Shown here: in pieces, positions 9,996 to 28,495 of the stretch | Position numbering within the stretch: position 1 is the first letter of the stretch | Layout: each line of letters opens with the position of its first letter | Virus record (IMG/VR): IMGVR_UViG_3300036770_004584 | Coordinates: 1-32,004 of that record | Source: a virus | Reading direction: 5' to 3' (one strand) | Length of the DNA: 32,004 nt | Made by a program: the position numbers and the translations under genes | The notes under the pieces: model-generated | Told to the model about the DNA's origin: nothing | Database searches by the model: none | Seen by the model: only the letters and a program-made list of their open reading frames with translations

Positions 9996-10583
9996 ATGAC
10001 AGTTCCTGCGTACATAATCTGCGATACCCACACAGCCCAGGGCCTAGAAACCCTGAGAGAAACGGAATCACTGCTGGCTCAATTCAACTACAGCTATCAG
10101 CGTTGGCCGCAGACCCAGGGCAGATCTGTCACGGCAGAAACATGGCAGAGCCTAGGCATACGGCGCTTGGATCAGGGCAAATGGGTCAACAGGCCCGGAG
10201 CCTGGGGCTGCTTTATCAGCCATTATCGCCTTTGGCAGCTCAGCCGTGACAGCGGAAAGCCGATGTTGATATTGGAACATGATGCTCTGGCACAGGCGCC
10301 GTGGCCTGAAGATCTAGATCTAGATCAGTGTGTATGGAAACTGTGGCGGCCCGTGCCCGTGAAATTCAAACCCACGGTGGGCTATTGGAACAGAGGAGCC
10401 TGGGCCTACACGCTGACCGCCAAGCAGGCAGACAGCCTCATACGGTTCACGGAGCAGCAGGGCGCCCTAGCTCTGGACAAGCAGATCGGCTCTCACGATG
10501 TGCATTGGCAGCACTACGATCGAGATCTGTTCTTGCATAATCCAAAGAAACGTCAGAGTACGACCAGCGGCAGATCTCGATAA
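9996..10583 (+). CDS. GT25-family glycosyltransferase
   Basis: The core motifs of glycosyltransferase family 25 (LPS/collagen-type galactosyltransferases) are present: RPGAWGCFISHYRLWQLS, then GKPMLILEHDA (the usual LEDDA acidic cluster, here LEHDA), then the YTLTAKQADSLI segment, and DKQIGSHDV. Length 195 aa is short but normal for phage GT25 proteins. It would transfer a hexose to a lipooligosaccharide, glycoprotein or other acceptor. The family is found in marine T4-like phages. The first D of the usual E-D-D-A is His, so metal binding may differ. Another long frame on the same strand (9938-10249) is a shadow. Confidence 0.82.
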   Translation: MTVPAYIICDTHTAQGLETLRETESLLAQFNYSYQRWPQTQGRSVTAETWQSLGIRRLDQGKWVNRPGAWGCFISHYRLWQLSRDSGKPMLILEHDALAQAPWPEDLDLDQCVWKLWRPVPVKFKPTVGYWNRGAWAYTLTAKQADSLIRFTEQQGALALDKQIGSHDVHWQHYDRDLFLHNPKKRQSTTSGRSR

Positions 10584-11773: not shown

Positions 11774-12451
11774 ATGGAATATACACAGACTTGGAGATCT
11801 GCCGCTGAAATCAATCAGGCGATGAGCAGGGTCTATGGTCACATGAGTTTAGCCGTGCTGACCAGCATGGTTGTCAGTTTTTTAATCAGCAGCTCGCCTG
11901 ATTTAATGCAGTTCTTTTTTACCGGAGCGATGAAATGGCTAGTGATGTTCGCACCATTAATCGGGATAATCGCGCTGAGTTTTGGACTAGATAAATTGAC
12001 CTACGGTCAAGCACAGATCGCCCTGCATGGGTTTGCCGCTTTGATGGGACTGAGTTTTGCCACTATCTTCGTGGTGTTTACTCTAGGCAGTATTGTATCG
12101 GCATTCATGAGCGCCGCAGTGTTGTTCGGCACGATGACGTTCTATGGCTATTTCACAAAACGTAGCCTAGAAAGCGTTGGACAGTTTATGTTTATTGGAC
12201 TAATCGCTATAGTTATCGCATCGATCATCAACATCTTTGTTGGCAGCACAGTGGCACAAATGGTGATCAGCGCCTTGGCTATCGTTATATTTCTTGGGTT
12301 GACTGCTTGGGATACTCAGAGAATTAGAGAAATGGTATCAATGGACAGCGTTGACGGACGTATGGAAGTCGCGGGTGCGTTGAGCCTTTATCTAAACTTT
12401 ATTAATATTTTCTTGAATCTATTGCAGTTATTTGGTAATCGTTCTGAATAA
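11774..12451 (+). CDS. Bax inhibitor-1/YccA (TMBIM) family membrane protein
   Basis: ATG 11774 follows AGGAGG. The product is 225 aa with about seven membrane helices and the family hallmarks: an early TM pair, the GTMTFYGYFTKRSLESVG loop, TAWDTQRI in helix six (Asp180) and GALSLYLNFINIFLNLLQLFG at the end (given here as one family motif of about 20 residues). In the YetJ-type calcium-leak channels two Asp in helices six and seven form a pH-sensing pair; here the second position appears to be Asn (N208), which would alter gating. Bacterial YccA also modulates the FtsH protease. In a phage it may change host membrane permeability or protect membrane proteins from FtsH. Driven by an early and a late promoter. 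Confidence 0.93.
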   Translation: MEYTQTWRSAAEINQAMSRVYGHMSLAVLTSMVVSFLISSSPDLMQFFFTGAMKWLVMFAPLIGIIALSFGLDKLTYGQAQIALHGFAALMGLSFATIFVVFTLGSIVSAFMSAAVLFGTMTFYGYFTKRSLESVGQFMFIGLIAIVIASIINIFVGSTVAQMVISALAIVIFLGLTAWDTQRIREMVSMDSVDGRMEVAGALSLYLNFINIFLNLLQLFGNRSE

Positions 12452-12799: not shown

Positions 12800-13051
12800 T
12801 TATTTACCAAATTTTAAGGCGAACTCTGTGCGTAATTCGGGTCGATAAAATTCTGCATACAGTTTCTGCATACCTGCGTTAATGCCTGTTTCTTTTTCTA
12901 ATATTAGTTGTACTTCTGTGTGCGGACGTCGATTGAGCCAACGTATTGTTTCGTTACCGGCTAGATCATGCACTAAAGGCCAAGGTATATCATTATAACT
13001 GTCGGTGTAATCACCTAGCCATTCGGCTAGCATAACTTTTTCATTCTTCAT
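12800..13051 (-). CDS. 83-aa protein downstream of the helicase, unknown
   Basis: The gene overlaps the helicase stop by 11 bases; a second ATG seven codons in (MLAEWLGDY) is an alternative start. The protein is acidic/aromatic at the N-terminus (EWLGDYTDSYNDIPWPLV) with a helical middle (GNETIRWLNRRPHTEVQLIL) and end (MQKLYAEFYRPELRTEFAL). No family recognised. Coupling to gp41 suggests a replication-linked role, inferred from position only. Confidence 0.72.
   Translation of the reverse strand: MKNEKVMLAEWLGDYTDSYNDIPWPLVHDLAGNETIRWLNRRPHTEVQLILEKETGINAGMQKLYAEFYRPELRTEFALKFGK
12801..12808 (-). promoter_or_regulatory. T4-like late promoter octamer GGTAAATA (minus)
   Basis: GGTAAATA on the minus strand overlaps the end of the preceding gene and ends 4 bases (AAGG) before ATG 12796. 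Confidence 0.5.
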
Positions 13052-14453
13052 CGTTGTTCATATTATTAAGTATTTCTCTCAGTTTACTGCTCTGTACTTC
13101 TGCCCTTACTTTACCAACGCTGACACCTTCAGTTGGTTCAGATCTCGTGATCTCAGTTTTACGTTTGATGCTGTCTAACAGTCCAGATGCACCTCTTTGA
13201 ACAGCACCATTGCTTTCTTGTTCTTCTTCAGGAAGATCTGTGATCTTTAGTGTTTCTAGATTAAACTCTAGATCAACCTTTTGGCCTACGCCCGAACTGC
13301 TTCTAGTCTTCATCAGCTGTATCTGATAGCGTCCCCGCTCGCGCATCGCACGGCTGGTAAAAATACCAAACACATTATCTGCTGTCTGGATCTTACTAAG
13401 TCCGCCGGAGATATGGCTATGATCAAACTCTACTTCCTCCACTGCACCACGATTCAACTGTGCCGCAGTAACTAATATGCATTGCTTTTCTACTGCTAGG
13501 TTTCTCAGTTCTTCTGATACATATTTGTCTTTGATAAACAGATCTGCCGGGGATATTTTCTTGCTCTGCGGCATAAGAAGGTCTAGATAGTCTACTAACA
13601 GCACATCAACTTTACGTCCTGTCTTAATTTCGTATTCTTTTAGATAGGCACGGATGTCGTTAGCGGTTTTACCAGACGGCATATATTTGACCTGATACGC
13701 ACCACTTTTTTTACCAATGATTCGCACCTTCATTTCCACATCATCAATTTCTTTAAAGATTTCTTTGGTACTTACACCAGTTGTCATTGCATCCATTCGC
13801 ATACAGACTAGATCTTCGGATAGCTCTAAGGTCAAATAAATTACATTTAGACCATTCAGAGCCCAGTTCACTCCTAAATTGGCTAGGAACAATGATTTAC
13901 CTGCACCTGATCCACCTGCGAAGATGTTGAGCTCTCCTCTGTTCATACCGCCAAACAGCCTACGATCTAAGCTGGGCCATCCTGTGCTAATCTGTCCATT
14001 CTTATCTTTGATACGCATCAGCCTCTGTCTTGGATCAGCAAAATAGTCAGTGCCCATATCTTTGGTAAGGCTGATCTGTACTGCTTCTTTGATTTTTATT
14101 TCAACTTGGCCGTAGTCCTTTTTCTCGAGAAGATCAGCCGATTCGATTATGGCTCTCTCTAAGGCTTTATGCCTGGTAAAGTTTTCAAATTCGTCCATCA
14201 ACCATTCATTATGGCCTTCTTTGATTTCTTCTGGTCGTTTAAAATCTGTCCTACAGCTGGCATTTACCATGTCATAATCGGGCAGCACCGAGTATTCTTT
14301 GGCATAGACATTTATGAATTCAGCAGCATCTTGTAATTTTCGATCAAATAATGTGTGATCGAATATTCCTTGACAACGGACGAATATTTCAGCGTCTGCC
14401 ATCATCATTTCTAAATATAGTTTTTGTACTTCGTATCCGTAATCTTTAATCAT
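13041..14453 (-). CDS. 41: replicative DNA helicase, T4 gp41 type (DnaB family)
   Basis: The C-terminal RecA-like domain carries GGMNRGELNIFAGGSGAGKS (Walker A at residues 180-187), a DnaB-type TLELSEDLVCMRMDA segment, Walker B VDVLLVDYLDLL (about 285-291), the TAAQLNRGAVEE sensor region (about 338-348), and the MRERGRYQIQLMKTRSS arginine-finger region. The N-terminal 150 residues match the helical DnaB-like collar. Length 470 aa is typical of gp41. It unwinds duplex DNA 5'-3' at the fork and forms the primosome with gp61, whose gene lies just upstream in the same cluster. TTTACC-17-TATAAT lies before the gene, with its ATG only 5 bases after the -10 box. Confidence 0.95.
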   Translation of the reverse strand: MIKDYGYEVQKLYLEMMMADAEIFVRCQGIFDHTLFDRKLQDAAEFINVYAKEYSVLPDYDMVNASCRTDFKRPEEIKEGHNEWLMDEFENFTRHKALERAIIESADLLEKKDYGQVEIKIKEAVQISLTKDMGTDYFADPRQRLMRIKDKNGQISTGWPSLDRRLFGGMNRGELNIFAGGSGAGKSLFLANLGVNWALNGLNVIYLTLELSEDLVCMRMDAMTTGVSTKEIFKEIDDVEMKVRIIGKKSGAYQVKYMPSGKTANDIRAYLKEYEIKTGRKVDVLLVDYLDLLMPQSKKISPADLFIKDKYVSEELRNLAVEKQCILVTAAQLNRGAVEEVEFDHSHISGGLSKIQTADNVFGIFTSRAMRERGRYQIQLMKTRSSSGVGQKVDLEFNLETLKITDLPEEEQESNGAVQRGASGLLDSIKRKTEITRSEPTEGVSVGKVRAEVQSSKLREILNNMNNDEE

Positions 14454-14458
14454 AAGTT

Positions 14459-14487
14459 ATTATACTTTCTAAGTGAAAACAGGTAAA
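14459..14487 (-). promoter_or_regulatory. sigma-70 type promoter before gp41 (minus)
   Basis: On the minus strand TTTACC (14487-14482), 17-base spacer and consensus TATAAT (14464-14459). Only AACTT separates the -10 box from ATG 14453. Confidence 0.6.
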
Positions 14488-15941
14488 CCGTATCGATCTT
14501 TCCAATTTTCAACATCCTTACTGTCATTCAATATTGGTTGTCCTTTGATATTAAGACTTGTGTTTAATAACATCGGACACCCTGTTTTTATAAACCACTT
14601 TTCTAAAAGGTCTCTAAATTCTGCATTATCTTTTGCTGAAACTGTTTGGACTCGACTGGTTCCGTCAAAATGAACCACGCCCGGATATTTTTCCGGACAC
14701 TTGCAACGTGCAGTAAATTGCATATAAGGACTTCTAGTCGAAGGCATATCAAAGTAAATGTCTGCGAATTCTTCCAGTACTGCAGGAGAAAAAGGCCTAA
14801 ACAATTCTCGCTGTTTGATTTTATTGACTCTATCTTTGATATCAGGAAGCCTTGGGTCTGCTATAAGGCTACGATTCCCCAAGGCTCTTGGGCCAAATTC
14901 AGCTTTTCCTCTGGCTAAGCCGCAAAGACTATTTTTTAATAGATAATCTATAATTACATTGTTATCTGTAGAATGTCCTAAATCATGACCTAGATAAGCC
15001 CCTGGCCATGATATGTGTTTTTGCTTATAGGCTAAGACACTGCCAATACTGCTGCCATTGTCGCCCGGCGCCGGCATTATCCAAACATTGTTATAGAATT
15101 TATAGGCAATATTGTTTGCCACGCAATTCAATGCGCATCCGCCCATTAACACTAAGTTATCGCTGGGATTAAGTTTTTTAGAATGGTCGATAACAGAATA
15201 AAACAGATCCTCATATATTTTTTGTACGGCAGCGGCTATGTCGAATTTGTCTTGTTCAGATTGTAATTCCGGTCTCCACCACAGGCAACCTTTGTGTAGA
15301 TTAGTAGAAAATTGTATCTTTTCTCTGTTACTATTTGAGGAAAAAAAATCTCTATATATTTCTGCATAGAATTTATATGGATCTCCAAGAGCAGCCATTC
15401 CCATTAAAATATATTCTTCTTCGTTTGGTTTTAATCCAATTCTTTGGGTCATAGCACTGTACCACAAGCCAATGCTATGTGGATAACTTAATCTGTGAAT
15501 TTTTTTTAAACGATCGCCCTCTGCCTTCCATACCGTTAAGGTTTCGAACTCACCGATGCTATCTATACAAACTACAGTGGCCTGTTCATATGGACTGGTG
15601 TAATATCCTGCCGACGCATGGCTGTGGTGATGACTTTGATATTTTATTGGAGATTTTAATTTATATGTACTAAGATATTTTTTGATATTATTTTCATTTA
15701 ATTTCAATCCTTGCCCGGCATATAATTGTCGTAATGTTTTTTTGTAAGGATTTTCGTACCAGCAGATTAAATCAGGCTCTCCGACTAGATGTAATGCTTC
15801 GTTAACAAGATCCATATGTAAATCTGGATCGTTTTTAATCTTACTGTAACGTTCGCTGTCGCTGGCGAATAATAAATCATCGTTTTTAAAAACAGCCAAT
15901 GAGGCATTATGACTATTAGCACTAATACCCCATACAATCAT
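14469..15941 (-). CDS. carbamoyltransferase, NodU/TobZ family
   Basis: The N-terminus MIVWGISANSHNASLAVF is the start of the YrdC/Kae1-like domain (G-I-S...H..S). SHHHSHASAGYY is the conserved His cluster; then VVCIDSIGEFETLTVW, GGCALNCVANNI, PAPGDNGSSIGSV, GKAEFGPRALGNRSL and the C-terminal LLNTSLNIKGQPI. Members transfer carbamoyl from carbamoyl phosphate, via carbamoyl-AMP, to a hydroxyl on a sugar or related acceptor. I place the start at ATG 15941 (GAGGA 8-14 bases upstream, ATGA overlap with the small gene above), not at the in-frame ATG 15962. At 490 aa it is shorter than the usual 550-600, lacking the last C-terminal part. Its position between primase and helicase raises the possibility of DNA-base modification. 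Confidence 0.93.
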   Translation of the reverse strand: MIVWGISANSHNASLAVFKNDDLLFASDSERYSKIKNDPDLHMDLVNEALHLVGEPDLICWYENPYKKTLRQLYAGQGLKLNENNIKKYLSTYKLKSPIKYQSHHHSHASAGYYTSPYEQATVVCIDSIGEFETLTVWKAEGDRLKKIHRLSYPHSIGLWYSAMTQRIGLKPNEEEYILMGMAALGDPYKFYAEIYRDFFSSNSNREKIQFSTNLHKGCLWWRPELQSEQDKFDIAAAVQKIYEDLFYSVIDHSKKLNPSDNLVLMGGCALNCVANNIAYKFYNNVWIMPAPGDNGSSIGSVLAYKQKHISWPGAYLGHDLGHSTDNNVIIDYLLKNSLCGLARGKAEFGPRALGNRSLIADPRLPDIKDRVNKIKQRELFRPFSPAVLEEFADIYFDMPSTRSPYMQFTARCKCPEKYPGVVHFDGTSRVQTVSAKDNAEFRDLLEKWFIKTGCPMLLNTSLNIKGQPILNDSKDVENWKDRYGLPVFT

Positions 15942-16075
15942 GTGGTCAATCCTCGCTTGCATTCAATTTCATACGTCATAATAAATTCAGGAATTTCTAT
16001 GATCGATAATAACATTAAAAATAAGAAAGTTGATGCTAAGAATCCTAAGGAGAAAGATAAAAAATATTTTTTCAT
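15938..16075 (-). CDS. 45-aa single-span membrane protein
   Basis: A frame of 45 codons lies between two solid genes, starting in an ATGA overlap with the 37-aa gene above and ending in an ATGA overlap with the carbamoyltransferase. The product MKKYFLSFSLGFLASTFLFL then MLLSIIEIPEFIMTYEIECK and RGLTT has one strong N-terminal membrane helix and a short polar tail. AAGGAG (in the reverse strand, CTCCTTAG downstream) belongs to its coding region, not a binding site. Exact coupling at both ends makes it likely real. Confidence 0.65.
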   Translation of the reverse strand: MKKYFLSFSLGFLASTFLFLMLLSIIEIPEFIMTYEIECKRGLTT

Positions 16076-16185
16076 TTGTATATAAAAGGGTCTCTCTTTT
16101 TAAGTTCTTCGATTCGTTTTTTTAACTTTCTCTTTTCTAAAAATTTAGTTAACGGGGAAATCAACCAATTAAATATTTTTTTCAT
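16072..16185 (-). CDS. 37-aa basic peptide with amphipathic start
   Basis: The ATG lies inside the last codons of the primase gene (GAGAATG) and the stop overlaps the next ATG. It encodes MKKIFNWLISPLTKFLEKRK followed by LKKRIEELKKRDPFIYK: a hydrophobic/amphipathic start and a very basic coiled-coil-like helix. It could be a membrane-surface peptide. It is supported by position and coupling rather than by homology. Confidence 0.6.
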   Translation of the reverse strand: MKKIFNWLISPLTKFLEKRKLKKRIEELKKRDPFIYK

Positions 16186-17197
16186 TCTCTAAAATCTCCA
16201 GTTTTCGCTTTTGTTGATTTTTCGCCAGATTAATTTTGATACTGCCCTTTTGAGCAGTCTTAATCAAATCTGTAATGACAAATAATTTTCCGTATCTATT
16301 CACAGCATCGGCAACATCTTTAATATCATTATCCCAATTAGGCATCGCTACCGACCAATTCAATTCGGCAGCTCGATCAAATAATACTAACCCTGCTTGA
16401 TCTTGATCTGGAACCAATATAACTTCTGTGTTTAGACTATTAATTATCCTGGATTGTTGATCTGCTACATCGTTAGTGAGAAGAGCCACGCCGCCGACAG
16501 CTAAGGCATCAAACGGGCCTTCACAAACAAACAGATAACGTTGTTTTTCTGTTTGCTTATCGAAATTAAAAACAAAATGAGGATGCTGATCTGAAAGATA
16601 TTTAGGTTTTCCATTCGTGATTTTTCGCGCCGTATTACCGACGATTCTTTGATCCCATCGAAAAGGAATAATTACTCGATCAGCGTAACCAGCAGCAGGG
16701 CTCCAATAAAAATCTGCAGACAACGGATCCATTTGCCTACTGTAAAGGTATTCAATAATCGGATCAAGTAATTCAGAAACATCATTGTAAAACTCTGATT
16801 GTAACCATTCAGAGATCATCATTGATCCGTCTGGTAGAGTTTTTTCTGTAAAATCTAGTTTAGGTTGATATTTTTCCGAGCTATAATCTTCAGCTTCTGT
16901 TTTTAATGACTCGAACACAATTTCTTTAATAGTATCCTCGCCGGCGCCCATCCATCTAAGGAGAGTTTTCATTTTTTCCCCGATGGAAGATCCAGGTTGC
17001 CAGCCAGTAGAAAATTTACAATTGAAACAATTGTAAACGATACCATCCCCATCAAATCTAACACCGGCCCTTTTTCTAGTGTCTGCTTTATGTCCCCTGT
17101 GCTGGCAGCAAGGTGCATTAAAACTTAGCCAACCGCTAGGGCTATTTTTTGTTCGAGGAGGTAATAGTGTTCTAAACTTATCTACGACTAAGGTCAT
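16169..17197 (-). CDS. 61: DNA primase, T4 gp61 type
   Basis: An N-terminal zinc-binding motif is visible: Cys30/Cys31-x-His33-x2-His36 and, after about 20 residues, C57-F-N-C60 (NAPCCQHRGHKADTRKRAG and VYNCFNCKFSTGW). The Toprim domain follows: YLFVCEGPFDALAVGG (Glu226) and EVILVPDQDQAG (Asp264, Asp266). Length 342 aa fits gp61. It makes RNA primers for lagging-strand synthesis together with gp41. TTGACA-17-TATACT lies directly upstream, with ATG only 6 bases after the -10 box. The 3' end overlaps the 37-aa gene. Confidence 0.95.
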   Translation of the reverse strand: MTLVVDKFRTLLPPRTKNSPSGWLSFNAPCCQHRGHKADTRKRAGVRFDGDGIVYNCFNCKFSTGWQPGSSIGEKMKTLLRWMGAGEDTIKEIVFESLKTEAEDYSSEKYQPKLDFTEKTLPDGSMMISEWLQSEFYNDVSELLDPIIEYLYSRQMDPLSADFYWSPAAGYADRVIIPFRWDQRIVGNTARKITNGKPKYLSDQHPHFVFNFDKQTEKQRYLFVCEGPFDALAVGGVALLTNDVADQQSRIINSLNTEVILVPDQDQAGLVLFDRAAELNWSVAMPNWDNDIKDVADAVNRYGKLFVITDLIKTAQKGSIKINLAKNQQKRKLEILENEKNI

Positions 17198-18304: not shown

Positions 18305-18676
18305 ATGCGAATAACTGAAAATATTAAGGAAAACTTTCCGTTTATTACCGTAATTTCTCATGTAGACAAAGAATATGTGGGAATAATGATTAATCAAGAT
18401 GCTCAAATTACTAGTTTTTACGATTATAGTTTGCTAAAAACAGAAGAAGAGAAAAAAACATTCTTGGAACTAGGTGAATCCTGGTGGTGGGAGAGTAATA
18501 GGCAAATTCCAATCAATATTTTTTTACATAGTGAAATTGGTCCTTATAGATATAGTATTAGAAATTTCGCTTCTAAAGATGTTAAGATTTTGTTTGGACC
18601 GGTAATTAGTTTAAATAATATTTTAGTTAAGCGTGTAAAACGTAAGTCTATTACATTAGTCAAAAAAATTAGTTAG
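18305..18676 (+). CDS. 123-aa conserved marine T4-like phage protein
   Basis: A plus-strand gene in an otherwise minus-strand cluster. ATG 18305 (MRITENIKENFPFITVISHV) is preferred; the upstream in-frame ATG 18272 would overlap the divergent promoter and the start of the virion gene. The sequence TFLELGESWWWESNRQIPINIF then FLHSEIGPYRYSIRNFASKD, ending KRKSITLVKKIS, recalls a conserved unknown of marine T4-like phages with a WWWESNR-IPINIFL core. It ends with a 4-base convergent overlap with the DnaE-like gene. Function unknown. Confidence 0.8.
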   Translation: MRITENIKENFPFITVISHVDKEYVGIMINQDAQITSFYDYSLLKTEEEKKTFLELGESWWWESNRQIPINIFLHSEIGPYRYSIRNFASKDVKILFGPVISLNNILVKRVKRKSITLVKKIS

Positions 18677-19251
18677 CTGTAACCATAGCTAATTTGTTCA
18701 CAAATTAAATTCATCTGAACAACAATAGCCATAGCATATGCAGTAGCATGGCTTTTCTTAAAATAATATTCGTTGCTGCTAGGCTTCTTCCAAACTTCCT
18801 GTAAAACTTCTTTCATTGGTCGGCCTAACAGGTGCCGTTTAGCAGGACGAATTATTGCTAGGACTGCTGCTAATTCTTCTATACTACAGGGTTTCATAGT
18901 CTGACAAATTTTAGCATGTCCATTTAAATGAAACAGTAAGTTAACAAAATCTTCCTGCTCTAATAGGTCCCATAGAGGATCTTTATTCATGAGTTCTATA
19001 AGATGTTCTTCGTTTCGAACGCCGTTGTACATGCTTACATTGAGGAAGTCGATTTTAAAATATCCCAGATCTTCCGCTTGATCAAAAGGGATATCAGAAA
19101 AATTATTAAGACAATTGAACGGAACTTCGTGCAGATATACGCCAGTATTGTGCTTGACCAGTGTACCTTTTTCTTGCCGACTAGCAGATACATGATTAAT
19201 TTTTTCTAATATTGCATTTCTATCGCAGAAATCTATATCAATGTCAGGCAT
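18673..19251 (-). CDS. miniature DnaE-like protein (Pol III alpha core)
   Basis: The protein is 192 aa yet follows the motif order of bacterial DNA polymerase III alpha: PDIDIDFCDRNAILEKI at residues 2-18 (Asp5/Asp7, the palm D-x-D), KHNTGVYLHEVPF at 33-45, FDQAEDLGYFKIDFLNVS at 56-73 (Asp68, third catalytic Asp in K-x-D-F-L), SIEELAAVLAIIRPA at 123-137 and FKKSHATAYAMAIVVQM at 164-180 (the fingers K-SHA-x-YA). Full DnaE is over 1,000 residues, so PHP, thumb, beta-clamp and OB parts are absent and the palm is strongly condensed. It may be catalytic, a nucleotide or template binder, or a dominant interference factor. Its start overlaps the preceding gene by 8 bases. Confidence 0.8.
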   Translation of the reverse strand: MPDIDIDFCDRNAILEKINHVSASRQEKGTLVKHNTGVYLHEVPFNCLNNFSDIPFDQAEDLGYFKIDFLNVSMYNGVRNEEHLIELMNKDPLWDLLEQEDFVNLLFHLNGHAKICQTMKPCSIEELAAVLAIIRPAKRHLLGRPMKEVLQEVWKKPSSNEYYFKKSHATAYAMAIVVQMNLICEQISYGYS

Positions 19252-21058: not shown

Positions 21059-21606
21059 ATCCTTTCGGCCATGATAAAAAAGTTTTTTACAGGAATTTCT
21101 TTCCTTAGTTGCTTTGAATATTTTGAAAATTCTTTGTAGTCTTCTTTTATAACACGAACTCCTGCCTGTGTAAACTTATTTCTCCACCATTCTGGAGTTT
21201 CTTGTATTAGGTGTGCATTTCTTCCATCTGGTAATATAAGCTTGGCAGGGGCACAACTTATTAGATGATATTGCAAAGGCGATTTTATACATAAAGTTTC
21301 TAAAACTGTTTTGATGTGCTCAGGTTCTACATGCTCAAGGACATCTGTGGATATAATCATATCTACATCTGGTAATGGAATATCATACTCTGGATTAGCT
21401 GGATCATACCCTATAATCTTTTTATTAGGGTACAATTCATTTAAAACTTTAACAAGATTTCCTTTTCCGCATCCAAAGTCTAAAACAGAGTTAGGCTGTT
21501 TTATTTTAATAAATTCGTCTAGATAAGGGGGAACTTTTGCTCGTTTTCCGAATGGCGTGTTTTTGTGAATATCTCTGTAAATATTTTTAAGAGAGTTAGA
21601 GATCAT
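21055..21606 (-). CDS. class I SAM-dependent methyltransferase
   Basis: Motif I SVLDFGCGKGNLVKVLNEL (about residues 40-58), an acidic end of strand 2 (IIGYDPANPEY), motif IV VDMIISTDVLEHVEPEHI (about 80-97) and a Methyltransf_11/23-type layout. 183 aa. The acceptor is not visible; with cupin, glycosyltransferase-like and FkbM genes just upstream, a sugar or surface-polymer O-methyltransferase is the natural guess. It begins in an ATGA overlap with the cupin gene. Confidence 0.85.
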   Translation of the reverse strand: MISNSLKNIYRDIHKNTPFGKRAKVPPYLDEFIKIKQPNSVLDFGCGKGNLVKVLNELYPNKKIIGYDPANPEYDIPLPDVDMIISTDVLEHVEPEHIKTVLETLCIKSPLQYHLISCAPAKLILPDGRNAHLIQETPEWWRNKFTQAGVRVIKEDYKEFSKYSKQLRKEIPVKNFFIMAERI

Positions 21607-21947
21607 TTACTAAAACCAACAGTTTCTCTTTCAATGTCGTCGTGATCAAATTCAGCCCAATACAATTCAAACGCTATGCAATCTTCTACTGCTTCAAATT
21701 GATGGTATTCTCCCGGAGCAACTTTCGTATATTGCCCAGCTTCTAAAATTGTTTCGTCGACAAGATCGTAATTATTTTTCCATACACGAATAATCATTTT
21801 TCCGCTCTCGACAAAAAAACCATTCCATTTATATTTGTGTTTGTGTTTAGAACACACTCCTCCTGCTTTGGCTTCAATTCTATGAAATTCTAGAACGCCG
21901 TTGGCTTCTAATAATTCAGTCTGACCCCACACTTTTCCTGCTTTCAT
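21603..21947 (-). CDS. cupin-domain protein, 114 aa
   Basis: A single cupin fold: the motif-1 region CSKHKHKYKWNGFFVESGKM (two His, then a Gly turn) and the motif-2 region VAPGEYHQFEAVEDCIAFEL (P-G-x-x-H). I chose ATG 21947 because GGAG lies about 8 bases upstream; an ATG 18 bases earlier lacks one. Single-domain cupins of this size include sugar isomerases and epimerases as well as non-catalytic binders; given the sugar genes nearby, a role in nucleotide-sugar metabolism is plausible but not shown. It overlaps the end of the gene above by about 32 bases. Confidence 0.82.
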   Translation of the reverse strand: MKAGKVWGQTELLEANGVLEFHRIEAKAGGVCSKHKHKYKWNGFFVESGKMIIRVWKNNYDLVDETILEAGQYTKVAPGEYHQFEAVEDCIAFELYWAEFDHDDIERETVGFSK

Positions 21948-22572
21948 TATTTTTCTCCGTTTCAATAATTGTAAATTTATGGTTAGCTTTATATTGTTGA
22001 CTGTAATGAGAACCTGTCATGTTATATAACTTATACTTTCTCAGTTCAACTTTTAATTGTTTATATTCGATAATATTATCATCTCCTGGATAATTCATAT
22101 TGTAATAAATCTGAGCCCATGCTTCGGAATCTCCCTGCCATCTTGATCTGTCATTCGGAAATAGATCTATAGCTTCTTGAAATATTGGATAAGCAGTCTT
22201 TTTGGCTAATCTCCATGCTGGTGATATCCTATTTTCTCTCACAGTGAATGCAGCATCACCAATTAAATCTGGAATCAAGTTGGTGAGCCTAGCATCTGGT
22301 TCTGTAAACCAATAAGTTTGATTATCTTCAGCGACGGTCTTTAGAAATTCAGTAAAAAAAACTTCACGATTAAAGTTTACCCAATCCGGGTTTCCTTCAA
22401 AATAAATGTTTTCGTCTCCTAGTCCTTGATGTCCTTCTAATGTTATATGTATTAATGGTATATTGTGCTTTTTTAAATTATTTCGTAAACCTAACATTAA
22501 TTCTTCATATAACCCTTTAGGAAATTTATCTGAGATTCTAGGACAATTAGCATAGTACACTACTGCTTTCAT
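21916..22572 (-). CDS. glycosyltransferase-like protein, 218 aa
   Basis: The protein begins with a Rossmann-like strand (MKAVVYYANCPRISDKFPKG), then KHNIPLIHITLEGHQGLGDE, NREVFFTEFLKTVAEDNQTY and a W-F-T-E-P-D-A segment with an acidic pair like a nucleotide-sugar metal site. Later WQGDSEAWAQIYY fits the acceptor side. The layout resembles small GT-A-type glycosyltransferases of phages, but no family signature is firm. It lies two bases after the FkbM gene and overlaps the cupin gene. Confidence 0.6.
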   Translation of the reverse strand: MKAVVYYANCPRISDKFPKGLYEELMLGLRNNLKKHNIPLIHITLEGHQGLGDENIYFEGNPDWVNFNREVFFTEFLKTVAEDNQTYWFTEPDARLTNLIPDLIGDAAFTVRENRISPAWRLAKKTAYPIFQEAIDLFPNDRSRWQGDSEAWAQIYYNMNYPGDDNIIEYKQLKVELRKYKLYNMTGSHYSQQYKANHKFTIIETEKNNESRKSVGSD

Positions 22573-22574
22573 TT

Positions 22575-23177
22575 TTAGTCTTTAATTAAAATGTGATCAT
22601 ATCCTCTTGGATCTACTGCGGCTATTTTATAGCCTAATTCTTTTTGAATCCATTCTAAGGTATCTCTTTCGAAATAAACTTCTAAATTAATTACTGGCCA
22701 ATAAGTCGTTATAGTTTCTAATGCACCATTTAAGACTGCCATTTCATAGCCGTCTGTATCGATTTTAATGTAATCAACATCTGTAAAATTAAAGTCATCT
22801 AATCTACAAAAGTTTTCGTTACCAATCGGGTCATTTCCTTTACGCTCACTGATTGGTTTATCGCCCAATGGTACTCCAAAATGCGTAACACGACTTACGT
22901 CTACATTATGCGGGAAAAACTTTCTTGTTCTTGGGTCGAACGCAAAAATATCTTTAAAATCTCTTATCAAATATCTTGTGTATTCGCCGTCTCTGCATCC
23001 AATATCTATAGCAGTTCTAAATTTTTTAACAAAAGGCTTACTAAGTTCATAAGCGAGTTTGCAATGATGATTAGGATATTCTGCTGCTCCTACTTTACAG
23101 TAAAAGAAATCTCTTTCAACAAATGATTCTTCGTAGTATCCGGGAGCAAACAGAGTGGGTTCAACTGGATAAGTCAT
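22575..23177 (-). CDS. FkbM-family methyltransferase 1
   Basis: SAM-binding motif AIDIGCRDGEYTRYLIRDF (about residues 55-73), acidic motif IFAFDPRTRKF, and the FkbM signature DYIKIDTDGYEMAVLNGALE (about 135-154) followed by WPVINLEVYFE. 200 aa. The family O-methylates sugars and polyketides. It is the first gene of its minus-strand unit, behind a perfect TATAAATA late promoter and an AAGGAAA ribosome binding site. Confidence 0.88.
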   Translation of the reverse strand: MTYPVEPTLFAPGYYEESFVERDFFYCKVGAAEYPNHHCKLAYELSKPFVKKFRTAIDIGCRDGEYTRYLIRDFKDIFAFDPRTRKFFPHNVDVSRVTHFGVPLGDKPISERKGNDPIGNENFCRLDDFNFTDVDYIKIDTDGYEMAVLNGALETITTYWPVINLEVYFERDTLEWIQKELGYKIAAVDPRGYDHILIKD

Positions 23178-23195
23178 AATTTTTTTCCTTTCTGC

Positions 23196-23203
23196 TATTT
23201 ATA
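23196..23203 (-). promoter_or_regulatory. T4-like late promoter TATAAATA (minus)
   Basis: A consensus TATAAATA on the minus strand with a normal leader (18 bases, AAGGAAA) before ATG 23177. It is two bases from a plus-strand octamer, forming a divergent pair. Confidence 0.75.
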
Positions 23204-23205
23204 AC

Positions 23206-23213
23206 GTTAAATA
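23206..23213 (+). promoter_or_regulatory. T4-like late promoter octamer GTTAAATA (plus)
   Basis: GTTAAATA ends 5 bases before ATG 23219. Confidence 0.55.
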
Positions 23214-23218
23214 GTTTG

Positions 23219-24016
23219 ATGATAAAATATGCCTATTGTCCAGAAATAATAGAAAATAAAAGTTCTAATTGGATTTTGCAGCCTTGGATAAAGTCTGGAG
23301 CAAAACTTTTTAATACAGTCAAAGAAGTTCCTGAAGATTACGTTTTGATTTCTGTACATTATCCACCTTGGCGGTCTCCTTACAAAGAATGGATTTCTTT
23401 AGGAAGAAAACACATAGAAGTAGACTACGGGTATTGGGGAATTAATAATCCTAGAAGAAATACACGCAGAGTCACATATGGCGGCGGCCATAATCTTAAC
23501 ATGAGATCCACTCCATTCAGCAGGACACACACTTTGCATCCTAAAATTGAAAATTGGAGAGATTCGCTAGGCGAATATCTTTTGTTAATCGAACCACAAC
23601 AAGAAATAGTTAAGGAAAGATTAGGAATAGATTTAGGTACATGGAAAAATAATTTATTAGAAACATTATCGCGTCATTGGGATGGTCCAATTAAATGGAG
23701 GCGCAAGGCAGGAGGTAAAAATCCTGGCCGGTGGCCTAGTTTTTTAGAAGACCTAAAAGGATGTCATGCAGTTGTAGGTGAACGAACAATGGCCTGCGTC
23801 GAAGCCGTTATGTTAGGAAATCTTGCCTACACTACAGATTATTCAACTGTAAGTTTGCTAATGGGAACTGATTTATCTAAATTAAAAAAACCAGAGTATC
23901 CAGATCGTACGAAATGGCTTAATCACGTTGCTTGGAGCCAATTTTTACCTGAAGAATTTGGTAATAATACTTCTGTAGCAGACATGGTCTATCAGTATCA
24001 AATGGAGAATATTTAA
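23219..24016 (+). CDS. glycosyltransferase-like protein, 265 aa
   Basis: Start at ATG 23219, 5 bases after GTTAAATA; TTG 23216 is also in frame. The protein begins MIKYAYCPEIIENKSSNWIL, has VEVDYGYWGINNPRRNTRR-like basic-aromatic segments and a C-terminal nucleotide-binding-type region (GCHAVVGERTMACVEAVMLG) that matches the 'S..g.EAl..G.P' logic of capsule-type and GT-B glycosyltransferases. The protein at the right edge of the window has a comparable segment. It stands with an FkbM gene on the plus strand amid minus-strand genes. Confidence 0.62.
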   Translation: MIKYAYCPEIIENKSSNWILQPWIKSGAKLFNTVKEVPEDYVLISVHYPPWRSPYKEWISLGRKHIEVDYGYWGINNPRRNTRRVTYGGGHNLNMRSTPFSRTHTLHPKIENWRDSLGEYLLLIEPQQEIVKERLGIDLGTWKNNLLETLSRHWDGPIKWRRKAGGKNPGRWPSFLEDLKGCHAVVGERTMACVEAVMLGNLAYTTDYSTVSLLMGTDLSKLKKPEYPDRTKWLNHVAWSQFLPEEFGNNTSVADMVYQYQMENI

Positions 24017-24685
24017 ATGGAATACAAGTATGTAAACGGATGGAAATTTCCTGCTTATGAAACTAGATTGTTAGCTATTGACGAACAGGGAGAAAGCACA
24101 TACAGTGGATTAAAGCATGTTGATATTGCTTTAGAACATGTAAAAGAATTTGGCGTAATGATAGATGTAGGTGCAAATGTTGGTTTGATCACGGTACCGA
24201 TGGCTAAAAAATTCAATGAAATTTATTCATTTGAATGTGTTCCTGAAACTTTCGAATGTTTAACCTATAATACTCAGTCTTATAATAATGTTTCATGTTT
24301 TAACGTTGCGGTTTCGGACAGTATTTCAAAAGTGAAAGTTGCTATTCCGAAATCAGATGGCGTAGTATACTCTTCTGGCTGGGCTTCAATTTCAAAAGAA
24401 CGCCAAGAATCATTTCCAGAAAAAGACTTAATTGAAGTTGATTCTTTAACTCTAGATAGTTTAAATTTAAAGAGGTTAGATTTTTTGAAAATTGATGTAG
24501 AGCAAGCAGAAATGATGGTGATCAGAGGAGCTCTTGAATCAATAATGAAATTTAAACCTGTTATTGAATTTGAAAATAAAAGAAGAGAAAATGTAGAGGT
24601 AATTGGATTATTAAATTCTATTGGTTATTCAATTATACCAGGCAGAAAGGCCAAGTCTTCTGAATGTATAATGATTCCTGGTTAA
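24017..24685 (+). CDS. FkbM-family methyltransferase 2
   Basis: MIDVGANVGLITVPMAKKF (about residues 52-70) is motif I with the FkbM D-V-G-A-N-V-G signature; IYSFECVPETFECL follows, then DSLNLKRLDFLKIDVEQAEM and VIRGALE (the FkbM D-x-E-x-x-E block). 222 aa. It starts immediately after the previous stop (TAAATGG) and ends in a 4-base convergent overlap with the next minus gene. The acceptor is probably a sugar of a surface polymer. It is not close to the first FkbM protein of this window outside the motifs. Confidence 0.9.
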   Translation: MEYKYVNGWKFPAYETRLLAIDEQGESTYSGLKHVDIALEHVKEFGVMIDVGANVGLITVPMAKKFNEIYSFECVPETFECLTYNTQSYNNVSCFNVAVSDSISKVKVAIPKSDGVVYSSGWASISKERQESFPEKDLIEVDSLTLDSLNLKRLDFLKIDVEQAEMMVIRGALESIMKFKPVIEFENKRRENVEVIGLLNSIGYSIIPGRKAKSSECIMIPG

Positions 24686-25422
24686 GTTAATCTATTAACA
24701 AATCTATTAATAAGATAATCTTTATCGTCTCCTTTGGCATGCACAATGTTAGTTCCAATTAATGATTGACTGAAAGGATTTTTATTTGTCTTTGCTTGGC
24801 TGTTAATGTTAAAAAATAATTCAGGTTTATTCCAGGATAATCTAACAACATCAAAAGTATAAGAATCGTGCGTTTCTTTAAGTTCTATAAACTTGCCGCT
24901 GAGATATAAATTCTCCCATTCTTCTAAAAATTTTCTAGTATCAGGATGCGACAGATTAAACCCGATCCACCCGCACTCGGAAAATTTTCCTGGGCGACCC
25001 ATGTAAGATATCATGTACTGATCTGGACAAACTTTTTTCAAAAAAACTTCGTCGATTTTTTTATAGATAAATGCGTCAACATCTAACCATATCAACCAAT
25101 CACTAGTTTGTAGTTTTGCACAATGCCAAATGGCAAAAGTTTTATGTACAAATTTTACAGCATTAGTTCTATAATTTTTTGCACCGTTAGCTTTAGGGTT
25201 ATCTTTCCATTGTTCTACGAATGCTGGCAATTGCGGACATGATGAATATAAATCAAGCCAGTGTACTCTCGGTGAGAAATTATTTGTTGGTATTTTTCCT
25301 AATTGATTGTATAAAAAAACATCACATGTGTCTAGCCAATTAGTATCTAATTTTGAGATCGTCGTTTCTCCGATCTCTTCCCAATATTTTTGATTAAAAC
25401 TGGTTAATACATTATATTTCAT
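24682..25422 (-). CDS. GT-A type glycosyltransferase-like protein, 246 aa
   Basis: A D-x-D site is clear in SDWLIWLDVDAFIYKKI (about residues 106-122), with the upstream AKLQTSDW strand and a conserved ECGWIGFNLSHPDTRKF block as in GT-A enzymes. The C-terminus has NIVHAKGDDKDYL, a motif position where retaining GT-A enzymes carry H-x-K-G. It transfers a sugar from a nucleotide donor; the acceptor is unknown. Its start overlaps the preceding stop (ATGA). Confidence 0.8.
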   Translation of the reverse strand: MKYNVLTSFNQKYWEEIGETTISKLDTNWLDTCDVFLYNQLGKIPTNNFSPRVHWLDLYSSCPQLPAFVEQWKDNPKANGAKNYRTNAVKFVHKTFAIWHCAKLQTSDWLIWLDVDAFIYKKIDEVFLKKVCPDQYMISYMGRPGKFSECGWIGFNLSHPDTRKFLEEWENLYLSGKFIELKETHDSYTFDVVRLSWNKPELFFNINSQAKTNKNPFSQSLIGTNIVHAKGDDKDYLINRFVNRLT

Positions 25423-26159
25423 TTCATAATCTCTTTATAAATTGATTCCGCTCTTTTTTTTCTCTTCGGACCTTTGAAATCTATGATAATTGGATTTACA
25501 CCAATTTCAGGAATTTGTTTTTTTATTGGAGATACAAAATTTGAACCATATTGAAAAAGTTTAATAGTTAGATTTTTTAAATGGAAAGTTCCGATTGGCA
25601 GGTTTTTTGCTGAAAAATTTAATATTTGCTCTTCTTCTAATATTTTTTGATAACTTAATTGATCTCCGAACCATAATTTATCGTTTTCAGAAAGTCTTTT
25701 ATAGCAATCATAGCGTCTTTCAAAAAATTCTACGACATTTTTTTTGTTTGTATTATTGACGAGAACAATAGTATTGTTTACTCTCAATGGATTACCAACT
25801 ATTGCTATTCCAATGTCGAATTCACTATTAAACAAACCATTTACCGAGGAGTTAACTAAATGATCGGCACCACATAAGATAAGTTTATCATTCTTAGATT
25901 TGACATATTCTAAATTACTTACACAAAAACTTTCCATTATATTTAGATTATCTAAGTTAGATCTAAAAACATTAAAATTCTTTAATCTTGTATGTTGATC
26001 TGACGTAATTTCAAAATTGTATGATGTATTAAATTTAAAAAATGTATCATACATTCTTATTAAATTTTTTTTGTAATCAAAAATTTGCGACATTTCATTT
26101 ACTTCATGCCCTTCAAACTTAAGATCTGTGTCTTTATAAAAGGGAGCTAGAATAATCAT
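25419..26159 (-). CDS. glycosyltransferase-like protein, 246 aa
   Basis: MIILAPFYKDTDLKFEGHEV opens the protein; NDKLILCGADHLVNSS provides a possible acidic metal site, LWFGDQLSYQKI fits the acceptor-side loop, and the C-terminus IGVNPIIIDFKGPKRKK resembles the 'H/D-F-K-G-x-[RK]K' end of GT-A proteins of capsule clusters. The similarity of layout to the 246-aa gene below suggests paralogy. It overlaps the aminotransferase gene above by 26 bases. Confidence 0.68.
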   Translation of the reverse strand: MIILAPFYKDTDLKFEGHEVNEMSQIFDYKKNLIRMYDTFFKFNTSYNFEITSDQHTRLKNFNVFRSNLDNLNIMESFCVSNLEYVKSKNDKLILCGADHLVNSSVNGLFNSEFDIGIAIVGNPLRVNNTIVLVNNTNKKNVVEFFERRYDCYKRLSENDKLWFGDQLSYQKILEEEQILNFSAKNLPIGTFHLKNLTIKLFQYGSNFVSPIKKQIPEIGVNPIIIDFKGPKRKKRAESIYKEIMK

Positions 26160-27177
26160 TAATTGCCTCTATTACACCCTCATAATCTACACCTGGATAT
26201 ATGGGTAAACTTACTTCATGGAACGCTATTCGATCTGTTTCAGGTAAAAAGTATGAATTCCTATAAGCAGGTAATCGATGTACTGGTAAAGGATAGTGAA
26301 CCTTTAGATCTACTCTATCTTTAACGGCTTTTATTACGTCGTCTCTATTTTGAAACAGAACAGGATAGATATGGAAACTGTGTTCCACATGATTTTTCAC
26401 ATTAATAAACTTAAAATGTTCTGAATATTTTTTTGCAATTTCTCTTTTTTGTGCCAATACATCATTAAAACATCTTAACTTTATTCTTAGGAATTCTGAT
26501 TGTATATTAGACATTCTATAATTAAACCCAACATCATTTTCGTCCCATGATCGGGCTTTTTTAATATAATTTGCAATTTCCTTATCGTTAGTGATAATAC
26601 ATCCCGAATCACCCAATGCTCCTAATCCTTTTCCAGGATAAAAACTGAAAGTACCGATAGTACCAAATGATCCTACATGTTGACCTAAATATCTAGTTCC
26701 GTGTGCCTGGCTGCAATCTTCTACAACAGGTATTTTAAATCGATTAGCTACATCTAAAATTGCCGGCATATCTGCAAAATTGCCGTAGATGTGAACAGGC
26801 ATAATTAGTTTTGTTTTAGACGTAATTTTTTGTTCTAGTTGTGAAGCATCTAATGTAAATGTTTCTTGATCTACATCTACAAAGACTGGAGTAGCTCCAC
26901 AATATTTAATAGCAGAAACTGTTGCTCTAAAAGTGTGACTAACAGTGATAACCTCGTCTCCTGGGCCAATTCCTAGACTCAACAATGCAAGGTGTAAGGC
27001 AGATGTTCCGTTAGAAACAGCCACGCAGTATTTTGTTCCAACATAATCCGCGAACTCCTCCTCAAATTTTTCTGTTCCGAACACATAGTTTCCGCTACGA
27101 ATAACTTCGGCAGATTTCTTTATAAGTTCTTCTTCTATTGGGCTGTGTATTTCTTTAAAACTGTAAAAAGGTATCAT
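26134..27177 (-). CDS. DegT/DnrJ/EryC1/StrS sugar aminotransferase
   Basis: The PLP-dependent family motifs are all present: SNGTSALHLALLSLGIGPGD, SHTFRATVSAIKYCGATPVF, VVEDCSQAHGTRYLG, and the lysine block GTFSFYPGKGLGALGDSGCI with the Schiff-base Lys at residue 183 (from the chosen start), then FNYRMSNIQSEFLRIKL. These enzymes aminate keto groups of nucleotide sugars using glutamate. I chose ATG 27177 because it overlaps the preceding TGA as ATGA; ATG 27186 is in frame. 347 aa, slightly shorter than typical. It follows a dehydrogenase and an acyltransferase gene, as in short amino-sugar pathways. Confidence 0.93.
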   Translation of the reverse strand: MIPFYSFKEIHSPIEEELIKKSAEVIRSGNYVFGTEKFEEEFADYVGTKYCVAVSNGTSALHLALLSLGIGPGDEVITVSHTFRATVSAIKYCGATPVFVDVDQETFTLDASQLEQKITSKTKLIMPVHIYGNFADMPAILDVANRFKIPVVEDCSQAHGTRYLGQHVGSFGTIGTFSFYPGKGLGALGDSGCIITNDKEIANYIKKARSWDENDVGFNYRMSNIQSEFLRIKLRCFNDVLAQKREIAKKYSEHFKFINVKNHVEHSFHIYPVLFQNRDDVIKAVKDRVDLKVHYPLPVHRLPAYRNSYFLPETDRIAFHEVSLPIYPGVDYEGVIEAINDYSSSLL

Positions 27178-28079
27178 AAAATCCATTCCATTATTTTAAT
27201 TGAATTAGTAATATCGGTTATTGGTCTATTTCTAGATTCACAACATTGGATAAAATGCTGTGCTCCATTACTTAATGCTTCAGAAGTTTCTATTTTAGGA
27301 GCGAACATATCTCCAAGTTTATTTGCGTTATAATCTTTATCTATCGTGCCAGTTTGATAAACTTTGATCTTATCATTTTCTAGGTCGTCATACACTATGC
27401 TACTTTCTATGCCTGCCAAAATGATCTGCCTTTTCTTAACCGGACTGACCCAATTTACATTTATGTTTGCAGTGAAACCATTAGTGAATTTTAGGCTTAT
27501 AATTGCTTGGTTTGACAGCTCGTTCACATGAGAGTTTTTAGTAATGGTTCTACTTTCTAGTATTAAATCCGGGTATAGATAATTAATAATACTCACGTCA
27601 TGAATAGCTAGATCTAGAACGACATCAACATCGGGTTGAAATAATCCTAAACTAATTCTTGTACTATCATAATATAATGGTTTCCCGATCGGGATGTTTT
27701 TTATTTTCTGAACCGCAGGATGATAACAAAATGTATGGTCTACAAAGACTATCTTATTATTTTCAACAGCTAGATCTCGAAGTTGTTTTGCCTTGGCTAG
27801 TGTTTCGCATACTGGCTTTTCTATCCAAAGATCTTTTCCGGACATAATGCATTTTACAGCTAACGAAAAGTGAGATTCTGCTTTTGTTGCGATTGCTACT
27901 GCTTTAACTTCTGGATCTAACAAAGCATCTTCGACATTTGAATATAATTTTGTGTGCGGGAAAAGCATCTGAGCTGCTGACATTCTAGCAGGATCAGATT
28001 CGCAAATAGCGTGTAGATTTTTTCCAAAATTCCTTGCTAGATTCTTACCCCAATATCCGTAACCAATTAATAAAATCAT
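27174..28079 (-). CDS. Gfo/Idh/MocA family sugar dehydrogenase
   Basis: The N-terminal NAD(P)-binding Rossmann motif MILLIGYGYWGKNLARNFG (G-x-G-x-W-G), the AVAIATKAESHFSLAVK segment and the family hallmark WIEKPVCETLAKAKQL (E-K-P, about residues 90-105) are clear. DLAIHDVSIINYLYP carries the catalytic-site D-x-x-x-H type block. 301 aa. It probably oxidises a hydroxyl on a nucleotide sugar to the ketone which the downstream aminotransferase uses. ATGA overlaps at both ends. Confidence 0.92.
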   Translation of the reverse strand: MILLIGYGYWGKNLARNFGKNLHAICESDPARMSAAQMLFPHTKLYSNVEDALLDPEVKAVAIATKAESHFSLAVKCIMSGKDLWIEKPVCETLAKAKQLRDLAVENNKIVFVDHTFCYHPAVQKIKNIPIGKPLYYDSTRISLGLFQPDVDVVLDLAIHDVSIINYLYPDLILESRTITKNSHVNELSNQAIISLKFTNGFTANINVNWVSPVKKRQIILAGIESSIVYDDLENDKIKVYQTGTIDKDYNANKLGDMFAPKIETSEALSNGAQHFIQCCESRNRPITDITNSIKIMEWIL

Positions 28080-28495
28080 TTTAACTTCCTTGCTGGATTT
28101 CCAACATAGGTTCCTGGTTCAGTAATATCTTTAGTAACTACTGATCCTGCACCTATGACTACATCGCTACATATTGATACAGGTAGAATAGTCGAATTAC
28201 TTCCTATATAAACTTTATTTCCAATTATAGTTGGAAGAAAATCTTTGCTCAGTTTTCTATCAATAAATTTATCATTCACAAACATTACACCGTGCCCGAT
28301 AAAACAATCTTCGCCGATAGTGACTTTCGAACAAATGAAAGAATGACTTTGTATCCTTGTTCTTTTTCCGATATTAACATCGTTTTGTATTTCTACGAAC
28401 GGCCCAACAAATACACTGTCGTCAAGATAACACCCGTAAATATTAACAGGTTCGATAATCTTAACATTATCGCCTTCTATTACTTTTACTTTCAT
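28076..28495 (-). CDS. left-handed beta-helix acyltransferase (hexapeptide)
   Basis: Repeated hexapeptides with the [LIV]-G-x-x-x-x rhythm run through most of the 139 residues: VFVGPFVEIQNDVNIGKRTR, VTIGEDCFIGHGVMF, VYIGSNSTILPVSICSDVVI and GAGSVVTKDI, ending in the family NPARKLK. The active-site His lies in the IGHG block. It most resembles WbpD/WlbB-type N-acetyltransferases of 3-amino sugars but lacks the C-terminal extension. With the adjacent dehydrogenase and aminotransferase it would complete a 3-acylamino sugar. Confidence 0.9.
   Translation of the reverse strand: MKVKVIEGDNVKIIEPVNIYGCYLDDSVFVGPFVEIQNDVNIGKRTRIQSHSFICSKVTIGEDCFIGHGVMFVNDKFIDRKLSKDFLPTIIGNKVYIGSNSTILPVSICSDVVIGAGSVVTKDITEPGTYVGNPARKLK

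Follow-up and report, generated by a model that had tools for sequence, protein, structure and literature searches.

Why should a T4-like virus carry a gene for an O-carbamoyltransferase between its primase and its replicative helicase, and which hydroxyl group would such an enzyme modify? The question is raised by the IMG/VR virus record IMGVR_UViG_3300036770_004584, a genome known only to the extent of the 32,004 bases that were analysed here and are referred to as the window; a megablast search of the window against named phages gave no match. Few viruses are as common in water as the T4-like phages, and to our knowledge the carbamoyltransferases of these phages have so far been annotated by similarity only. 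An initial annotation of the window had read the position of the gene as a sign of a DNA-linked role, such as carbamoylation of a hydroxymethylated base, or of a membrane-linked replication site.

The primase-helicase interval and its microprotein

The operon lies on the minus strand, and the ORF coordinates give the order primase, pep37, mem45, carbamoyltransferase (CT) and gp41-like helicase. The primase (16169-17197) is the upstream gene, in the position of T4 gp61, and matches phrog_47 (5.5e-32), with Toprim_2 slightly below the cut-off. It overlaps by 17 bases with pep37 (16072-16185), a basic microprotein of 37 residues that ends in KKRDPFIYK. An ATGA overlap joins pep37 to mem45 (15938-16075), a 45-residue hydrophobic ORF, and a further ATGA joins mem45 to the CT (14469-15941, 490 residues), which is separated by 15 bases from the downstream helicase (13041-14453; DnaB_C 7e-20, phrog_19 3.3e-69). 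The gene order, coordinates and overlaps given by the initial annotation are thus correct. An alternative CT start at an ATG at 15962 is possible in the ORF; the start was set at 15941 because relatives match from the residue encoded there. Downstream of the helicase operon, on the opposite strand, lies a gene for a Bax inhibitor-1 family membrane protein (11774-12451; PF01027, 5e-49), which is conserved in many relatives.

The CT matches Carbam_trans_N (1.6e-39) and Carbam_trans_C (2.1e-48) in Pfam and phrog_1601 (5.7e-97) in PHROG, and its solved structural relatives are NovN-type 9s2t, GdmN and TobZ. Residue alignment places the iron ligands at H104, H108, D127 and D294 and the general-base histidine at H11; the GdmN counterparts are H133, H137, D156 and D333, with H27 as general base (PMC9633730). 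In the GdmN structure a YrdC-like domain makes carbamoyl-AMP and a Kae1-like domain transfers the carbamoyl group (PMC9633730). The Kae1-like domain of the window enzyme comprises residues 1-312 (15006-15941, minus strand), as judged from conserved residues and alignments with truncated relatives, and the YrdC-like domain comprises residues from about 334 to 490 (14472-14942, minus strand), as judged from the Carbam_trans_C match and the domain roles in GdmN. The family matches and metal ligands agree with the NodU/TobZ-type identity proposed at the outset. By sequence the window CT belongs to the class III O-carbamoyltransferases and has complete metal ligands, and its activity is predicted to depend on ATP and carbamoyl phosphate.

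The position of the gene is not peculiar to the window. An IMG/VR scan with the CT retrieved 503 relatives, the best 80 of which are 56-64% identical to the window enzyme. A second scan, with the primase as query, gave 79 further loci, and in 67 of the 73 that contain both primase and helicase a CT lies between them; the remaining six intervals are empty. Many of these contigs are near-copies, and when only distinct interval sequences are counted 43 of 49 show the order primase-pep-CT-helicase. The recurrence of this order in 67 of 73 complete intervals exceeds chance, so that the replication-operon placement of the CT is genuine and conserved. In the six empty intervals neither a pep adjoining the primase nor a CT anywhere on the record was found, one of these records being 327 kb long; pep and CT are gained or lost together. 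In T4 the corresponding interval is occupied by small, unrelated genes, sp and dmd among them, so that placement in the operon alone proves no role in replication. A 192-residue protein, encoded at 18673-19251 in the window and conserved upstream of the primase in most relatives, matches phrog_11778 ('DNA polymerase', 2e-63) and has two motifs, PDIDIDF and KKSHA, that recall Pol III alpha of bacteria; searches of Pfam and PDB sequences gave no confirmation that this mini polymerase is a Pol III alpha fragment.

The new element of this locus is pep37, which is a real gene. Among 152 CT loci fetched regardless of the presence of a peptide, 124 have a short ORF ending in DP[F/Y][I/L/V]Y+K that stops at the CT start, mostly with an ATGA. 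The tail is extremely conserved: among 75 distinct nucleotide versions, selected by the motif from 97 distinct short ORFs whose stop lies at the start of the CT, the residues D, P, F, I, Y and K occur in 75, 75, 71, 72, 75 and 74, respectively. The codons vary synonymously (Pro CCT/CCG/CCA 26/26/22; Ile ATT/ATC/ATA 26/25/21), which indicates that the tail is conserved as protein and not as DNA. The N-terminal part is free in sequence. The family has a median length of 37 residues, a median pI of 10.4 and a net charge of +8, and in 82% of the sequences the hydrophobic moment exceeds that of shuffled versions, so that the body appears to be a basic amphipathic helix whose pattern is conserved along the whole length. 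Read-through of the pep stop codon into the CT was dropped as a possibility, as few loci are in frame and the linkers would have only 2-4 residues.

Almost all genomes have a single pep copy. One record (L081, 1661-1765) has two, one before an SGNH-like gene and one before the CT, and also a second CT. The motif is absent from the genomes of T4, C48C1, Mosig, S-SSM7, P-SSM2 and S-CAM8, and bacterial CT relatives have no pep. A tblastn search of named phages with the pep consensus gave no match, where the low-complexity filter may mask a query so rich in lysine and arginine, and a literature search on DPFIY found no papers. On contig L326, which is binned as a gammaproteobacterial MAG and is possibly a phage contig, a pep-like ORF ending in EKDPFIYD was seen at position 10554, with a CT of 50% identity at a distance of about 4 kb.

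Window pep37 fits this pattern, being an upstream ORF that ends in RDPFIYK, and it is coupled to the CT through mem45. The latter has one hydrophobic segment (maximum of 2.27 over 19 residues on the Kyte-Doolittle scale), probably a single transmembrane segment. No mem45 homologue was found in the fetched loci, for which a 45-residue query is weak, and other small genes occupy its junction elsewhere (loci L002 and L003). It seems to have been inserted locally between pep and CT, apparently in the window alone, and is therefore unable to carry the explanation. Thus, one of the two small genes pointed out in the initial annotation is conserved in relatives and the other is not, and the suggestion of a membrane-linked replication site, which was built on the latter, is not supported.

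Half-enzymes and a separate full-length carbamoyltransferase

In most relatives selected with the primase, the gene behind pep encodes only the equivalent of CT residues 1 to about 312, which is the Kae1-like domain, and the YrdC-like domain is missing. These half-CTs look undecayed, because all 27 distinct ones keep H11 and the four iron ligands, as do nearly all full-length CTs. A quick tree of the N-terminal domain requires the enzyme to have switched between full and half forms three times or more, one switch being represented by a single 372-residue row. Natural loss of half the enzyme has thus occurred repeatedly, with pep retained.

A separate full-length CT from another branch of the family is present in 12 of 18 half-CT records, two of which have a split or 156-residue gene, compared with none of 14 records with a full CT at the replication locus (Fisher p = 1e-4). 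When all full-CT records are taken the proportion is 1 of 30 (Fisher 3e-6 against the half-CT records). The p-value of 1e-4 overstates the association, because the domain was lost independently only a few times (twice in the replication context), and since the records are non-independent and several are fragments the association is a strong hint and no proof. Seven of the eight records inspected show one conserved set of genes around the separate CT. One neighbour looked like a heptosyltransferase, a candidate assignment for which no Pfam or PDB match was obtained.

Genomic contexts and the nature of the acceptor

The pep-CT pair also occurs away from the replisome. Relatives with the gene in a polysaccharide cluster and away from the replisome would speak against a DNA-linked role, and contexts partly of this kind were found: a tail-fibre gene (phrog_9729) can be the neighbour of the pair, an SGNH-like gene then following the CT, and CTs also belong to clusters of radical SAM and further tailoring genes in which pep is missing or precedes another gene several kilobases away. 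In the CT tree the replisome and other contexts are intermixed within one large clade. A set of 117 pep copies was collected by pattern and is therefore biased to the motif; in this set 84 directly precede a CT and 20 precede an SGNH-like gene. Where a non-CT gene follows pep, a CT is found on the same record in nearly every case, and the same holds for almost all tested loci with pep before an SGNH-like gene. One SGNH-like protein from a pep locus matches DUF6071, a family whose members are annotated next to CTs of 45% identity on plasmids of Mesorhizobium and Streptomyces; a literature search on DUF6071 found no papers.

The window itself has a sugar and tailoring island (21606-28495) between a UvsW-like helicase and the replication genes, encoding a DegT aminotransferase, a Gfo/Idh oxidoreductase, a hexapeptide transferase, a cupin and two FkbM methyltransferases. 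Relatives that have retained pep-CT differ strongly in this island (21-28.5 kb), so that no fixed sugar pathway accompanies the CT. A glycosyltransferase family 25-like gene (9996-10583) is found in the plus-strand half of the window.

Carbamoylation of DNA has a precedent in a metagenomic enzyme of phage origin that converts 5hmC to 5-carbamoyloxymethylcytosine (Yang et al. 2021, eLife, PMC8670742). Genes of this kind occur with thymidylate-synthase-type genes, and the enzyme prefers single-stranded DNA but also acts on 5hmdCTP and RNA (PMC8670742). If the window enzyme carbamoylated a hydroxymethylated base of its own phage DNA, the result could be resistance to restriction, with pep tethering the enzyme to replisome DNA. 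The preference of the known enzyme for single strands, the fixed place between primase and helicase and the strongly basic character of pep would all suit such a role. Several observations argue against it, and we regard it as rather unlikely. The search for a hydroxymethylase suggested in the initial annotation did not find PF00303, the thymidylate-synthase-type family, in the pep-CT records searched, several of 138-353 kb, whereas T4 gp42 was detected as a control; likewise PF00145 (C5-methylase) and PF12851 (TET/JBP) were not found in the pep-CT genomes searched. For the window this absence rests on its relatives, because its record spans only 32 kb. The window enzyme is 25% identical to the validated enzyme, and at the signature positions corresponding to TobZ W408, G421 and R423 it has L, G and R where the validated enzyme has I, C and T. 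The Trp408 position is not discriminating, being hydrophobic in both the validated enzyme and the pep-CT family; at the other two Gly and Arg occur in 75 of 75 full-length relatives and the 5hmC-type Cys and Thr in none. The contexts outside the replisome point in the same direction. Base composition, which had been taken to suggest restriction-proof DNA, is a weak argument: GATC is indeed in excess in the window (244 seen, 179 expected by a Markov model), but CTAG (118 and 108) and AGATCT (31 and 27) scarcely are, and palindromes overall show no excess (2036 and 2064 for 4-mers, 516 and 554 for 6-mers). CGCG, AGCT and ACGT are depleted. In the pep-CT phages the hydroxyl may come from a hydroxylase that belongs to a different family, or the modified base may be one other than cytosine. 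A candidate for real 5hmC-type carbamoylation is phage C48C1, which encodes a TET/JBP-type protein (L325, 5584-7002; PF12851, 3e-19) and, elsewhere, a divergent CT without pep.

Other readings assign a different part to pep or to the acceptor. The peptide could itself be the acceptor or carrier, with the CT modifying it, for example at the invariant tyrosine, or acting on a group assembled on the peptide, in the manner of scaffold-peptide pathways. The contrast between the extremely conserved tail and the free N-terminal sequence would fit, as would the tailoring enzymes (SGNH, radical SAM, methyltransferase) adjoining some loci; yet tailoring genes are missing from the surroundings of most replication-operon loci, the bacterial relatives do without pep, and we know of no protein-directed member of the class III O-carbamoyltransferase family. 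We consider this reading quite improbable. We give a similarly small chance to pep as a regulatory leader, the C-terminus of which would stall or couple ribosomes and control whichever gene comes next. The ATGA coupling in most loci, the non-CT genes that can directly follow and a peptide length near that of the ribosomal tunnel agree with this, whereas pep disappears with the CT and is not retained with other genes, is usually present once per genome, and has its helix pattern conserved over the full length. There is a slim chance that the target is a nucleotide, an RNA or a signalling molecule that the CT carbamoylates at an early stage of infection, with counter-defence as one possible purpose: 5hmdCTP and RNA are substrates of the validated relative and the operon position is early or middle, but no PADLOC match was obtained, with models that list defence and not counter-defence proteins.

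The explanation that we favour, at about even confidence, is that T4-like phages have a mobile O-carbamoylation module of two genes, one for a dedicated microprotein and one for a class III CT, which is often located in the primase-helicase interval. The pairing of the genes, their conservation, the intact catalytic residues, the other contexts and the repeated loss of the YrdC-like domain are direct observations. In this module pep and then CT would be made, usually by coupled translation, and the YrdC-like domain would convert ATP and carbamoyl phosphate to carbamoyl-AMP, from which the iron-bearing Kae1-like domain would move the carbamoyl group onto a hydroxyl of an acceptor made or altered during infection. 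The acceptor is more likely a glycan or other polyol or hydroxyl compound than a hydroxymethylated base, although a glycan role leaves the strongly conserved replication-operon location unexplained. We speculate that pep keeps the transfer domain where it acts, at a membrane or nucleic acid, or hands it the acceptor. In half-enzyme phages the separate CT of full length, encoded at another place in the genome, might supply the carbamoyl-AMP. A tentative and distinctly less probable extension is that carbamoylation is truly split in these phages, a Kae1-like domain and an obligate, target-giving microprotein using carbamoyl-AMP from the second CT, which would constitute an undescribed microprotein-enzyme family.

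Comparison with known carbamoyltransferases

A microprotein partner that is nearly constant, and natural variants that have lost the activating domain but kept an intact transfer domain, offer a route to the target of the enzyme, and the half-enzymes let one ask whether carbamoyl-AMP passes between proteins. The locus also teaches caution, as a place in a replication operon alone is poor ground for assigning a role in DNA modification.

The 5hmC carbamoyltransferase (PMC8670742) shares enzyme family, chemistry and phage origin with the window CT, and differs in overall sequence, in its signature residues and in its hydroxymethylase partner, for which no counterpart was found here. The CT-DUF6071 pairs on plasmids of Mesorhizobium huakuii and Streptomyces sp. 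Mg1 resemble the module in their neighbour gene and in a CT 45% identical, but are bacterial and lack pep. The Nol-like CTs of the marine T4-like cyanophages S-SSM7, P-SSM2 and S-CAM8 also belong to phrog_1601 and lie near replication or structural genes; they are longer (536-600 residues), form a distinct branch of the tree and occur in genomes without the pep motif. With TobZ, GdmN and NovN of the NodU family the window CT has in common the Kae1-like and YrdC-like domains, the H/H/D/D iron site, the general-base histidine and a GPRALG motif. In contrast to these enzymes it is shorter, viral and paired with a microprotein, and its phage relatives show a recurrent natural loss of the YrdC-like domain.
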